Origin: Oscillospiraceae bacterium
GTDB taxonomy: Bacteria; Bacillota; Clostridia; Oscillospirales; Acutalibacteraceae
NCBI GenBank assembly: GCA_902786285.1
Contig: CADABX010000014.1
Location: 1-51,726, forward strand
Length of the DNA stretch: 51,726 nt
Direction of reading: 5' to 3'
This document shows, piece after piece, positions 9,178 to 28,752 of the stretch. Under the pieces are notes generated by a model. The model did not search any database and was not told the DNA's origin. It saw nothing but the letters and a program-made list of their open reading frames with translations. Each line of letters opens with the position of its first letter. The stretch's first letter is position 1. The position numbers and the translations under genes are program-made.

Positions 9178-10299
9178 ATGAAGTATGTGATCAACCGCGC
9201 CGACCGCGCACCTGCTTATTTGCAGCTTTACCGCCAACTGCGCTCCGATATTGCGCACGAAGTCTACCCCGCCGGGAGCCGTCTGCCGTCGAAGCGGCTG
9301 CTCAGCGAAGAGCTCGGCCTGAGCCTTGTCACGGTGGAGCACGCGCTCGCGTTGCTGTGCGACGAAGGGTACGCCACCGCCAAAGAGCGCAGCGGCGTGT
9401 TTGTCAGCTTCCGCGCCGGCGACCGGTTTCTTTCCGCCGACCTGCCAAAAGCGGCAGCCGAACCGGCGCCGCACAGCACCGCAGGCAGCAAGGCGAGCTT
9501 TCCGTTTTCCGTCTATGCCAAAGCCGTCCGGCTCTCGCTCGCGAGCGAGGGCGAAGATCTGCTGCAGCCGTCGGCGCCCCAGGGGGACCCGGCGCTGCGC
9601 AGCGCAATCTGCGATTATCTCATCCGTGCACGCGGACTGGAAGCCACGCCGGCGCAGGTGGTCATCGGCGCCGGGACGGAGTATCTCTATCATCTTTTGG
9701 TGCTGCTGCTCGGACGCGACAGGACGTTCGCGCTCGAGGATCCGTGCTATGAGCGGATCGCGCAGATCTATCTTGCCGAAGGCGTACCGCTCGAACGGCT
9801 GCCGCTCGGCCACGACGGCATCCGCAGCAGCGCATTGCAGCAATCGACGGCGGATGTGCTGCACATTTCGCCCTACCGCAGCTTTCCCTCGGGCGTCACC
9901 GCCTCGGCCAGCAAGCGCGCCGCCTATCTGCAGTGGGCGGCAAAGGGTGACCGGTGGATCGTGGAGGATGATTTTGAATCGGAGTTTTCCATGTCGAAAA
10001 AATATGAGGAGACGCTCTTTGCCCATTCCCACCGCAACTGCGTGATCTATCTCAACACCTTTTCCGGCACGATTTCCCCTGCCCTGCGGATGGGCTACAT
10101 GGTGGTGCCGCAGCGGCTGCTCGGCCGGCTGCAGGAGCTGACGGAGGTTTACAGCTGCACGGTGCCTGTGCTCGATCAACTTGTGGTTGCACATCTGCTG
10201 CAAAGCGGCGACTTTGAGCGGCACATCAACCGTGTACGGCGGCAAAAACGCAGAGAGCTTGAACAAATTCGGAATTCGGAATTCGGAATTCGGAATTGA
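9178..10299 (+). CDS. MocR/PdxR-type regulator, truncated and lacking the PLP lysine
   Basis: 373 aa: an N-terminal GntR winged helix (YLQLYRQLRSDI, SRLPSKRLLSEELGLS, VTVEHALALLCDEGY) joined to a class I aminotransferase-like domain (ALEDPCYERI, VEDDFESEF). In this family a Lys in a TFSKTLAP-like motif binds PLP; here it reads TFSGTISPALRMGY (Gly297, codon GGC), so no Schiff base can form there. Full-length MocR proteins are roughly 450–500 aa. This one stops after HINRVRRQKRRELEQ, and its last residues (IRNSEFGIRN) are encoded by the GGAATTC repeat arm, so the small C-terminal subdomain is missing. It is divergent from the S component. It may be a PLP-independent repressor or a decaying gene. 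No close ribosome binding site is seen. Confidence 0.85.
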   Translation: MKYVINRADRAPAYLQLYRQLRSDIAHEVYPAGSRLPSKRLLSEELGLSLVTVEHALALLCDEGYATAKERSGVFVSFRAGDRFLSADLPKAAAEPAPHSTAGSKASFPFSVYAKAVRLSLASEGEDLLQPSAPQGDPALRSAICDYLIRARGLEATPAQVVIGAGTEYLYHLLVLLLGRDRTFALEDPCYERIAQIYLAEGVPLERLPLGHDGIRSSALQQSTADVLHISPYRSFPSGVTASASKRAAYLQWAAKGDRWIVEDDFESEFSMSKKYEETLFAHSHRNCVIYLNTFSGTISPALRMGYMVVPQRLLGRLQELTEVYSCTVPVLDQLVVAHLLQSGDFERHINRVRRQKRRELEQIRNSEFGIRN

Positions 10300-10537
10300 T
10301 GGACGCCGCGCTGCGCGCGATGCGTCAAAGGTGCAGCGGCAACGTTGGTACATGCGCAGAAAAAGACAGCAAACCGTTCCAATGGCGGTTGCTGTCTTTC
10401 GTTTTATACATTGCTTTCGCGGATACAATCAACAAGCTTTCCGCGGCAGAGCGTTTGCGCCGCGGCGCAGCGTTTCCGGCGGCCGCACGGTTGACCCGCG
10501 ACCGCAATTCCGAATTCCGCATTCCGCATTCCGAATT
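10267..10537. repeat. GGAATTC-arm element, copy 1
   Basis: The left arm (10267–10297) has four GGAATTC heptamers. The right arm (10506–10537) is the complementary array with CCGCATT variants. The core starts with GGACGCCGC...GCGATGCGTCAAA (10301–10327), contains a strong hairpin AAAGACAGCAA...TTGCTGTCTTT (10362–10400), and ends in the GTTGACCCGCGACCGC motif shared with the other copies. The left arm encodes the C-terminus of the preceding regulator. Confidence 0.9.
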
Positions 10538-10542
10538 ACAAC

Positions 10543-10568
10543 AAAAAAGGCCGGCCATTCGGCCAGCC
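10543..10568 (-). terminator. Terminator of the sortase-anchored protein gene
   Basis: Minus strand GGCTGGCC-GAAT-GGCCGGCC followed by six T's, 18 bp after the stop codon. Confidence 0.85.
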
Positions 10569-10585
10569 ATCTATTTTTTGTTGTC

Positions 10586-27454: not shown

Positions 27455-27483
27455 TTGACAAACGCAGCGCAAAGCATTATCAT
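27455..27483 (+). promoter_or_regulatory. Promoter of the FHA–ftsW–PBP cluster
   Basis: TTGACA (27455–27460), 17-bp spacer, TATCAT (27478–27483), 30 bp before the start. Confidence 0.75.
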
Positions 27484-27512
27484 TAGGATAAGATCATTTC
27501 AGGAGGAGCGCC

Positions 27513-28460
27513 ATGGACGTTGTGATCTCTGTTTCCCGCTATCTGCTGCCGTTTCTGGCGCTTGTGATACTGGCAAAATGCCTCATTACCCTGCTGCTCG
27601 GCCACCCGCAGGAAAAAACCTACGGCTATCTGATCGACCAGGTCGACGGGCAGCGGTATGCGCTGAATATGTGGGAGACGTCGATCGGCCGAAGCAAGCA
27701 CTGCGATCTTGTAATCGGCTATGAAACCATCTCGCGCAACCACGCCGTGATCAGCCGGCGCATCGACGGGTGGTATATCTACGACCTCAACTCGAAATCG
27801 GGTATTTTAGTCAACGGCAAACGCGCCGAGCAGAAATCGCAGATCAAGCCCGGCGACCTCATTACGATGGGCTCGATGGCGTTTCGCTTTGCCGTGGTGG
27901 ACGACCCGGTGATCCGCGTCGGCAAAAAGCAAAAGCAGCAGATCGCCCCGCAGCCGGCAAAGCCAACCGCCGCACCGACGCCGTCCGCACCGGTACCGCA
28001 GCAAGCACAGGCGGCGCTGTTTACGCCGATAGACGGCTATGACGAACAGCACAAACCGCAGCTGCATTTTGAAAAGAAAACGCCCGACCTCATTTCGGAA
28101 AGCACGTCGCCGAAAAGCGGCCCGCTGTTTGCGGGCGATATCGTATACAGCGATACGTCGCGCATGGCGCAAAGCGGCCGCGCCACGCTCAAGAACACGC
28201 GCACGGGCGAAACGTTTTTGCTGTCGGGCAACCGCATCTCCATCGGCCGCTCGCGCGCATGCGATATCACGGTGGAATCGCCCACGGCGTCGCGCCGCCA
28301 CGCGCTGCTGATCCTTTATGAAGACGGCTGGGCGATCGACGATTGCGCGTCGACCCACGGCACCTATCTCAACGGCAACGACGTGACGCAGCCGCAGCTT
28401 TTGTTTTCCGGCGACGTGATCACGATCGGGTCGGACAAGCTGGTTTTCCGCAACGGATGA
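27513..28460 (+). CDS. Membrane-anchored double FHA-domain protein
   Basis: 315 aa. An N-terminal transmembrane helix (YLLPFLALVILAKCLITLLL) is followed by an FHA domain at about 45–135 (SIGRSKHCDLVI, ISRNHAVISRR, LNSKSGILVNG). A Pro/Ala-rich linker leads to a second FHA domain at about 225–315 (ISIGRSRACDITV, TASRRHALLI, STHGTYLNG). FHA domains bind phosphothreonine. The gene heads a cluster with an FtsW/RodA flippase-polymerase and a transpeptidase, so it probably recruits or regulates cell-wall synthesis under Ser/Thr kinase control. No PknB or PP2C gene lies in the window. GGAGG site at start; strong promoter upstream. Confidence 0.92.
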   Translation: MDVVISVSRYLLPFLALVILAKCLITLLLGHPQEKTYGYLIDQVDGQRYALNMWETSIGRSKHCDLVIGYETISRNHAVISRRIDGWYIYDLNSKSGILVNGKRAEQKSQIKPGDLITMGSMAFRFAVVDDPVIRVGKKQKQQIAPQPAKPTAAPTPSAPVPQQAQAALFTPIDGYDEQHKPQLHFEKKTPDLISESTSPKSGPLFAGDIVYSDTSRMAQSGRATLKNTRTGETFLLSGNRISIGRSRACDITVESPTASRRHALLILYEDGWAIDDCASTHGTYLNGNDVTQPQLLFSGDVITIGSDKLVFRNG

Positions 28461-28482
28461 GCGCGAAGCGGTCATCTGTTGC

Positions 28483-28752
28483 AAATTCGGAATGCGGAAT
28501 TCGGAATGCGGAATTTCGGGGCGCCGCACAAAGCGCGATGCGCCAAAAGCGTATAGGAAAAGCCGGTCCTTTGCCGCCAAAGATTGCAAATCATTTCGTT
28601 GGCGGAATCGTCCTTGCCGTCAGCAGTTTGTTCAGCGGACACAATTGCGTGTTTCCGTCAGCGGATTGCTTCTGCCGCGGCAGATTGTTTCCGTATGCCG
28701 CAAGGTGATCCCGCGACCACAATTCCGAATTCCGCATTCCGAATTCCGAATT
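28483..28752. repeat. GGAATTC-arm element, copy 4, inside the FHA–ftsW cluster
   Basis: Left arm 28483–28514, right arm 28721–28752. The core has GGGCGCCGC...GCGATGCGCCAAA (28517–28543), ATTGCAAATCATTTCGTTGG, GCCGCGGCAGATTGTTTCCG and CCCGCGACCAC. It splits two genes that normally sit close together. It accounts for the 28461–28773 gap; no gene is seen. Confidence 0.9.

Follow-up and report, generated by a model that had tools for sequence, protein, structure and literature searches.

The window analysed here is a stretch of 51,726 nt, contig 14 (C14) of a 2.39-Mb, 67-contig draft genome (G000; 90% complete) from an Oscillospiraceae bacterium. It carries four dispersed elements, E1 to E4, in each of which two arrays of a GGAATTC-type heptamer face each other across a core; these elements, together with genes of the PF05635 (TIGR02436) protein family that lie between similar arrays elsewhere, are the subject of this report. 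In E1, the left arm, (AATTCGG)n, occupies positions 10266-10297 (forward strand) and the right arm positions 10506-10537 (reverse), and the core between them (10298-10505, forward) runs from a left GC hairpin at 10301-10329 to the right end CCGCGACC. E3 consists of a left arm at 19971-20003 (forward), a core at 20004-20206 (forward), and a right arm at 20208-20239, followed by more degenerate copies up to 20287 (reverse), and E4 of a left arm at 28484-28515 (forward), a core at 28516-28720 (forward), and a right arm at 28721-28752 (reverse). The arms of E2 lie at 14402-14433 (forward) and 14744-14768 (reverse), and its core (14434-14743, reverse) gave a minus-strand blastn match and has about 110 bp extra at the hairpin end. 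Both Tandem Repeats Finder (TRF) and our own detector (score of at least 14, periods 5 to 12) located these arms, which bears out the facing arrays and the inverted E2 core described in an earlier note on this DNA.

In total, the detector found 11 arrays in the window. Nine had period 7 and two had period 8, no other period between 5 and 12 was represented, and five block-shuffled copies of the window gave none. The arrays are tandem 7-nt units of variable copy number outside genes. Period 7 accounted for 34 arrays across 446,685 bases of G000, with 4 more at period 8 and 1 each at periods 11 and 12; 365,841 bases from congeners held 20 of period 7, 1 of period 8, and 6 of other periods, and 332,865 bases from other genera held none by the same detector. 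Some of the G000 and congener stretches in this census were picked because hits lay in them; contigs C1 and C2 of G000 alone (320 kb) held 6 arrays of period 7, 1 of period 8, and 2 of other periods. The sister-species genomes (congeners) are designated G003, G009, G011, G012, G015, G018, G019, G022, and G028, and loci fetched for comparison carry L numbers.

The core is widespread in the genome: used as the query, the E3 core gave, counting itself, 33 blastn matches on the two strands of G000 at an E value of ≤0.01. Roughly half of these were long and the others short, mostly covering the hairpin end, and 8 of the 33 were no farther than about 410 bp from the end of a contig. At an E value of ≤0.001, 9 of 98 genomes (G000 counted) had a match, and the only full-length matches outside G000 were in G009. 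The conserved parts were the left GC hairpin (GGRCGCCGC-loop-GCG-AT-GCGYCRAA) and the right end CCGCGACC, which closes a second hairpin. RNAalifold on 24 cores yielded just these two terminal hairpins (about -18 kcal/mol), and the notion of the core as a structured RNA was dropped. Two other candidates were likewise set aside, namely, small hairpins favouring GNA loops through single-stranded DNA (48 of 253 triloop hairpins in G000 versus 29 of 181 in other genera, proportions that did not clearly differ) and cargo in the element at G000:C36:13864, which is truncated next to a convergent gene. Exact matches to the core hairpin came from 32 stretches of metagenome-assembled genomes (MAGs), named as Ruminococcaceae or Clostridia bacterium, among 84,980 species in a list that may leave out the window's own records; several of the hairpin-bearing MAGs were from goat or sheep rumen or omasum.

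PF05635 had no match in C14, and its matches in G000 were on contigs C2, C30, C15, and C9. Two elements, one at positions 121895-122439 of C2 and the other on contig C98 of G009, combine GGAATTC arms with a GC hairpin at each end and an internal open reading frame (ORF) that matches PF05635 (23S_rRNA_IVP) in a profile search. E1, E3, and E4 share with them the terminal 62 to 75 bp, that is, arm plus hairpin, at 78 to 97% identity, and E2 shares its ends in pieces, the arms (31 to 36 bp) and a 19-bp piece of the hairpin. The C2 site corresponds to one on contig C49 of G012, at which GTTAGCA arms surround the GC hairpin and no gene is present. The ORF of locus L127 spans positions 1973-2326. The earlier note had proposed looking for a transposase or recombinase whose ends carry these arms; unexpectedly, the gene found between such arms belongs to a four-helix-bundle family and is not a recognizable transposase.

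Two other candidate partners were rejected. The core hairpin was absent from 20 loci of Y1/RAYT transposases (RAYT, REP-associated tyrosine transposase; REP, repetitive extragenic palindromic sequence) and from two 20-kb stretches, a low-scoring Y1 locus on C7 of G000 being outside this set, and heptamer arrays occurred at 2 of the 20 Y1 loci, more than 500 bp from the gene. A reverse transcriptase (RT) as the writer of the arrays was dropped since RVT_1 (PF00078) had no match in G000, a 90% complete genome; 6 of 34 genus genomes have one. The missing match stands against a reverse-transcribed intermediate in G000. Locus L119 of G000 (1460-1915) holds a RAYT-like Y1 gene with GTAG-type palindrome pairs on both sides, which form a REP family of their own in G000.

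PF05635 genes were present in 32 of 34 genus, 138 of 295 order, and 60 of 299 phylum genomes. Their flanks were examined in these three sets and in a plasmid set built from one intervening-sequence protein (IVP), which gave 29 records, mostly cyanobacterial; 18 were used after removal of near-duplicates and weaker or partial hits. A strict test required period-7 or period-8 arrays on both sides within 400 bp, with words reverse complementary at no more than two differences. Among the better-scoring copies tested, 22 of 30 genus, 13 of 29 order, and 10 of 29 phylum loci passed, as did 10 of the 18 plasmid loci, tested with 250-bp flanks; in the controls, none of 17 Y1 loci (3 of the 20 were too short) and none of 7 RT loci passed. 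Two more genus copies, found at locus L336, both had matching facing arrays. A looser inverted-repeat score of at least 14 was attained by plasmid loci in 16 of 18 cases, by genus loci in 20 of 30, by order loci in 18 of 29, and by phylum loci in 23 of 29, and re-paired flanks reached that score in 9% (plasmid), 6% (genus), and 6% (order) of cases. In each of the four sets, the gene's own flanks beat re-paired ones, with 0 of 2,000 permutations reaching the observed sum.

The space beside PF05635 genes is mostly intergenic, so array density was compared in ORF-free DNA only, between DNA within 150 bp of the gene and DNA elsewhere in the same loci. The densities of period-7 and period-8 arrays were 5.86 versus 2.08 arrays/kb (plasmid), 7.63 versus 1.36 (genus), 7.26 versus 0.76 (order), and 5.43 versus 0.70 (phylum), an enrichment of 2.8- to 9.6-fold; a control that mixed in coding DNA had given 12- to 26-fold. 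Of 145 arrays near PF05635 genes, 133 had period 7, 8 had period 8, and 4 had period 11, and the 141 arrays of period 7 or 8 comprised 85 different words. Arrays of period 11 adjoin PF05635 genes in L366 and L369. Several plasmid copies lay between genes that are usually together, such as cas6-cas4, cas10-cmr3, and the ribonucleotide reductase subunits; in the cyanobacterial plasmid loci L288, L290, and L299, PF05635 genes between cas genes have heptamer or similar repeats alongside. A tblastn search of phages with the IVP protein gave no match.

The IVP protein encoded on C30 of G000 matched TIGR02436 (7.4e-37) and PF05635 (4.5e-38), and more distantly bAvd (E value, 1.9e-6) and the Avd model NF033474 (1.8e-5) of diversity-generating retroelements (DGRs), both under the curated cutoffs; its solved relatives are 2gsc and 2rld. 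An alignment of 39 sequences has five invariant columns. The ratio of nonsynonymous to synonymous substitution rates (dN/dS) was 0.02 to 0.16 in 8 of 10 pairs (dS exceeded 1 in several pairs and was saturated in two), a pattern showing that the PF05635 gene is under purifying selection.

These results bear on an alternative in which a trans-acting, sequence-specific transposase recognizes the two conserved ends of the core, GC hairpin and CCGCGACC; the arms would then be by-products and the PF05635 gene a passenger. Many DDE transposases leave a 5-bp target duplication, the length seen at the plasmid sites described below, and strong conservation within the core is confined to its hairpin and its right end. 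It would sit poorly with the 20 Y1 loci and two 20-kb stretches that lack the core hairpin (DDE transposases were not searched), with the lack of heptamer arrays within 400 bp of the gene in the 17 Y1 loci tested, with the association of arms and PF05635 in the order, phylum, and plasmid sets too, and with the purifying selection on the gene, and was considered rather unlikely.

The arms vary widely in sequence. Around the same hairpin they were read as GGAATTC, GTAATTC, GCAATTC, GGAATGT, GTTAGAT, GTTAGCT, GAATGAA, GGGCCAA, GGGATTGA, GGGACTAA, and GTGCAGT, and the hairpin was also flanked by arrays of small hairpins with GTGAAAT spacers. A nonredundant set of 65 hairpin-bearing elements was assembled by dropping near-duplicates and those with fewer than 45 bases left on one side or 330 on the other (left and right, respectively); a simple rule divided it into 39 GGAATTC-armed elements and 26 others, the latter including a few degenerate GGAATTC arms (L052 and L023) and nested copies. 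In these 26 window-type elements, the match between an element's own left and right arms beat that of re-paired arms, with 0 of 5,000 permutations reaching it, and the own partner ranked first of 65 in 9 of the 26. The swappable termini described in the earlier note are real, the 65 elements carrying many words that on average match from left to right: the arm word is free, yet complementarity between the two arms of one copy is the tendency. Nested elements occupy one site in G018 and G028 (L053/L209 and L063) with a common outer GGAATGT arm and hairpin, the inner arms being GCAATTC in one and GGAATTC in the other.

Such variety could also arise if many unrelated families of miniature inverted-repeat transposable elements (MITEs), each with its own arm word, competed for the same intergenic sites without any rewriting of arms. 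The common word does differ by species, GGAATTC making up 29 of the 41 words tallied in G000 and GTTAGA-type words occurring in 3 of 5 loci in RUG11928, which favours this view. The tree of cores, however, does not follow arm flavour: with 47 cores labelled GGAATTC (34), half (7), or other (6), 12 changes were counted versus 12.4 after shuffling. The bootstrap was unsettled and the labels were crude, so this result was taken only to mean that arms do not visibly follow the core. Furthermore, L018 (G000) and L207 (a RUG10646 contig of G009) have sister cores (100/99) and share their outer flanks, with different arms. L207 has GGAATTC arms on both sides; in L018 the outer left GGAATTC arm persists, GTGAAAT-type hairpin arrays separate it from the core, and on the right such arrays take the place of GGAATTC. 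One-sided stages exist as well, GTGAAAT-type arrays being present on the left only in L004, L017, and L026, and at the glyA-serS site, described below, the gene stays in place while the words differ. Competing families were accordingly given a low probability.

At the sites of the window elements, comparison with the sister species revealed polymorphism instead of ancient, immobile vertical sequence. The E1 site had an altered core in G009, one heptamer plus unrelated sequence in G012, and one heptamer in G011 (the site in G015 was not covered). The E2 site was occupied in G009, held ATTCGGAATTCCGAATT alone in G012, retained the right arm in G011 and G015, and had no arm in G003. The E3 site had other words in G011 and G015, the two genomes that cover it. 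E4 was inverted as a whole, in place, in G009 (90% identity), was a different variant in G015, and was represented by two to three heptamers in G012 and one in G011. One-sided arrays without a core occurred in relatives at E2, E4, and the further arm sites S5 and S6. At S5, G009 had the same left word and a different right word, G011 and G012 had one-sided arrays of other words, and G003 and G028 seemed empty; at S7, G009 had a different word and G011, G012, and G015 seemed empty. Most core-less sites retain at least one heptamer, and remnants with one palindromic GAATTC would fit deletion between the arms. The gene segment at 24335-24943, between two arm sites, is inverted relative to its right-hand flank in G011, G012, and G015; G003 and G028 do not show this inversion. 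In G015, the DNA from E3 to S5 is inverted as well.

Words also change while the surroundings stay. Downstream of glnA, arrays with a drifted word particular to the genome were present in the majority of nine congeners. Between glyA and serS, the gene is present in G000, G011, G015, G018, G019, and G028; the arm words at gene-bearing copies were TTAGCAG, TAGCTGT, and AGTGGCT, with AGTCGTT read by eye in G018 and G028, both of which fail the strict arm test. At the same site, G009 carries a window-type core that lacks a left arm and has GGAATTC as its right arm, G012 contains a single ATTCGGAATT, and G003 and G022 have about 60 bp with no clear arm. The site thus accommodates both gene-bearing and gene-less forms, and its words change under a constant gene order. 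The earlier note's second suggestion, a process that writes arrays at particular sites, gains some support from these sites, at which the flanks (and at glyA-serS the gene) persist under changing words.

On the plasmids, near-identical pairs of records show gene-bearing elements interrupting DNA that is otherwise continuous. At site A, an element lies between GTAAT and GTAAT in Trichormus (L302) and Scytonema, and a single GTAAT is present in Tolypothrix (L305) and Microchaete, with flanks 98.3 and 96.9% identical between L302 and L305; four further records gave the same shortened match, as judged from the search result alone. The same site has facing arms without a gene in Brasilonema and a left arm plus an apparently truncated gene in Nostoc C052. 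At site D, TTCTA is present on both sides of the element in Nostoc ATCC 53789 (L294) and once in Nostoc C057 (L313). No heptamers were present at the empty sites A and D. A third place, L297 versus L312, would fit a 5-bp duplication if one mismatch is allowed, and sites B and C were not clean. At one plasmid site, the left arm is 14 bp longer in L302 than in L303.

The empty sites matter for the view that the arrays are ordinary repeats born of slippage, which pre-exist at permissive intergenic sites and into or beside which PF05635 genes and cores insert. Intergenic heptamer arrays are common in some bacteria and are explained by polymerase slippage in the available parts of two reports (PMC4692102 and PMC4679880), one-sided core-less arrays exist in relatives at E2, E4, S5, and S6, and the frequency of arrays is higher in ORF-free DNA distant from PF05635 genes than over the loci as a whole. 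Pre-existing repeats would nevertheless not account for the absence of heptamers at empty sites A and D, for arms of one copy that match mutually and face inwards, or for arms even in copies within 23S rRNA and RNase P RNA, and this view was regarded as improbable.

An Rfam scan of 20 phylum loci placed L359 and L367 within 23S rRNA and L370 within RNase P RNA. All three have heptamer arms, detected on both sides in L359 and read by eye on the right side in L367 and L370. The arms might matter solely at the RNA level, as stems that RNase III could excise, for instance; selection for RNA pairing would then maintain their complementarity, and copies would spread through rare recombination. Three of the 20 scanned loci being in structured RNA genes speaks for this, as do the several plasmid copies between genes of one apparent operon and the Coxiella 23S rRNA intervening sequence (IVS), with RNase III excision and strain-variable heptamers according to the accessible text of PMC4990558. 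RNA stems alone would leave unexplained the 5-bp duplications at insertion and the narrow 7-nt period, so we hold this reading to be unlikely.

Taken together, the window elements are probably nonautonomous, MITE-like members of a mobile class in which a PF05635/TIGR02436 gene lies between facing 7-nt, rarely 8-nt, arrays. The MITE-like character suggested in the earlier note is supported by dispersed copies with shared ends (the 33 G000 matches, with their hairpin and CCGCGACC ends), by occupied and near-empty sites in sister species, and by termini in common with a gene-bearing relative in the same genome. Such an element would appear to need the period and the complementarity of its arms and not their letters. 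We propose that the two arms pair by fold-back, either in RNA or in DNA that is single-stranded, that slippage in 7-nt register lengthens and alters an array, and that copying from one folded arm onto the other transfers the new word, such that both arms would change together; the four-helix-bundle protein may bind the folded arms and assist mobility. A more far-reaching form, in which the class spans several phyla with termini set by period and complementarity and the PF05635 protein, having a 7-nt footprint, helps to copy arm onto arm and sets the register, is a real possibility that falls short of being probable.

Several observations weigh against this interpretation. The tested loci were the better-scoring copies, for the genus 30 of about 110, and no arms were found by the strict test in 8 of 30 genus, 16 of 29 order, 19 of 29 phylum, and 8 of 18 plasmid loci; another 18 genus copies yielded 7 that passed, including one that repeats an earlier locus, and the PF05635 copies on C15 and C9 of G000 lack arms. 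The plasmid set is only 2.8-fold enriched in ORF-free DNA, and in 7 of the 26 window-type elements the own partner ranked below 40th of 65. By sequence comparison, the interiors of the window cores and of the gene-bearing elements are unrelated, so origin by simple deletion is at most a candidate explanation. Because PF05635 occurs in 32 of 34 genus genomes and the core in few, their co-occurrence says little, and the GC hairpin, seen only in this genus, may be a passenger. The 5-bp target duplications were found at two plasmid gene-bearing sites, one further flanking base differing at site D, and none was established for window-type elements. Finally, five invariant residues would not by themselves indicate a nuclease.

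Other sites in the window extend the range of arms. Site S5 has a left octamer arm, GAGGGATT, at 24075-24129 (forward), with degenerate copies until about 24151, and a right octamer arm at 24256-24284 (reverse); between them lies a GC hairpin of the E1-to-E4 kind (24154-24182, forward). A thiamine pyrophosphate (TPP) riboswitch aptamer on the minus strand (23941-24037) adjoins this site. The earlier report of the core start inside elements with other arms thus stands at S5 and is reduced to a degenerate piece at 27271-27290: there, an octamer array had been read as well, and the region 27230-27390 (strand unassigned) is better read by eye as short hairpins with GTGATGA spacers plus the degenerate GC hairpin piece. 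Sites that had been taken as arm-only turned out to have partners. The GGGCCAA arm at 899-930 (forward) faces a TTGGCCC arm at 1072-1127 (reverse), TRF and the detector placing the pair at 899-930 and 1072-1106; the GTCGACA arm at 49448-49477 (forward) faces a degenerate array at about 49838-49865 by eye, and a degenerate facing partner was also seen by eye for the array at 8467. An octamer arm of GCAAGATG at 24940-24984 (forward), previously noted from 24938, faces TCTTGCCA at 25609-25654 (reverse), and between them is a P-loop ORF (25050-25592, reverse; AAA-like, under Pfam cutoffs), homologues of which, at 73 to 74% nucleotide identity, lie at other places in G003, G011, G012, and G015 with no visible arms. 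Facing octamer arms of the GCAAGATG type also surround an ORF at L116 (14401-15492) that reads like a GNAT acetyltransferase, and at an L116-type site G009 has the same left octamer arm and then a different gene; the octamer-armed sites at 24940-25654 and in L116 thus hold accessory genes. At 10240-10299 and 49430-49514, the reading frames of the upstream genes enter the arms, which give the last codons or the stop.

PF05635 (TIGR02436) is widespread and has no known function in the parts of the literature consulted, and the short heptamer repeats of bacteria are unexplained there. Linking the two makes both testable, the gene as part of a mobile element and the repeats as its ends. If the proposed reading is true, heptamers in cyanobacteria, in 23S intervening sequences, and elsewhere would be footprints of the element and its gene-less relatives, PF05635 would gain a first function, and elements with ends set by pairing and period would be missed by tools that look for a sequence consensus.

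Among known systems, Foldback (FB) transposons have long terminal inverted repeats of tandem subunits and variable interiors. The elements described here share that design and differ in being bacterial, in having a 7-nt unit and a word for each copy, and in carrying a four-helix-bundle gene. The heptameric repeats of cyanobacteria go by the name STRR (short tandemly repeated repetitive sequences). These too have period 7, are intergenic, and vary in copy number in the portions seen of PMC4692102 and PMC4679880, whereas here facing pairs bound a gene or a core, and the whole unit is present or absent at two plasmid sites. REP sequences and their paired form, REPINs, with RAYTs, including the CGTC-tagged REPs treated in the available part of PMC3733652, resemble the core hairpin, which starts with GRC and ends with GYC, in being short intergenic GC hairpins; the core hairpin lacks the GTAG tag, however, and the palindromes beside the RAYT-like gene of L119 are of a different kind. 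The DGR accessory protein Avd belongs to a related protein family, as the bAvd and NF033474 matches under the cutoffs indicate and as the homology of IVP-type proteins with Avd noted in the accessible text of PMC10053308 agrees, and a DGR would differ in its reverse transcriptase, for which G000 has no PF00078 match.

A further related system is the 23S rRNA IVS. In Coxiella, tandem heptamers lie upstream of the S23p ORF in strain-variable number, and an older mobile-element hypothesis is cited (PMC4990558, in the part available); a PF05635 family gene, an inverted-repeat stem, and heptamers beside the ORF are common to both, and two of the copies reported here (L359 and L367) are themselves in 23S rRNA with heptamer arms. 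The window elements differ in lying outside rRNA, of which the window has none, and in being gene-less, with no PF05635 in C14; arm differences from copy to copy and dispersed gene-less relatives are not described in the accessible portion of PMC4990558. No description of an element class made up of PF05635 genes between facing heptamer arrays was found in open-access titles and abstracts. Heptamer repeats, 23S intervening sequences, and PF05635 are each known, and joining them into one class with sequence-free ends is new with respect to the open-access literature. The class counts as new when its termini are defined by period and pairing; with the 23S IVS taken as the class type, it would be a variant of the IVS.

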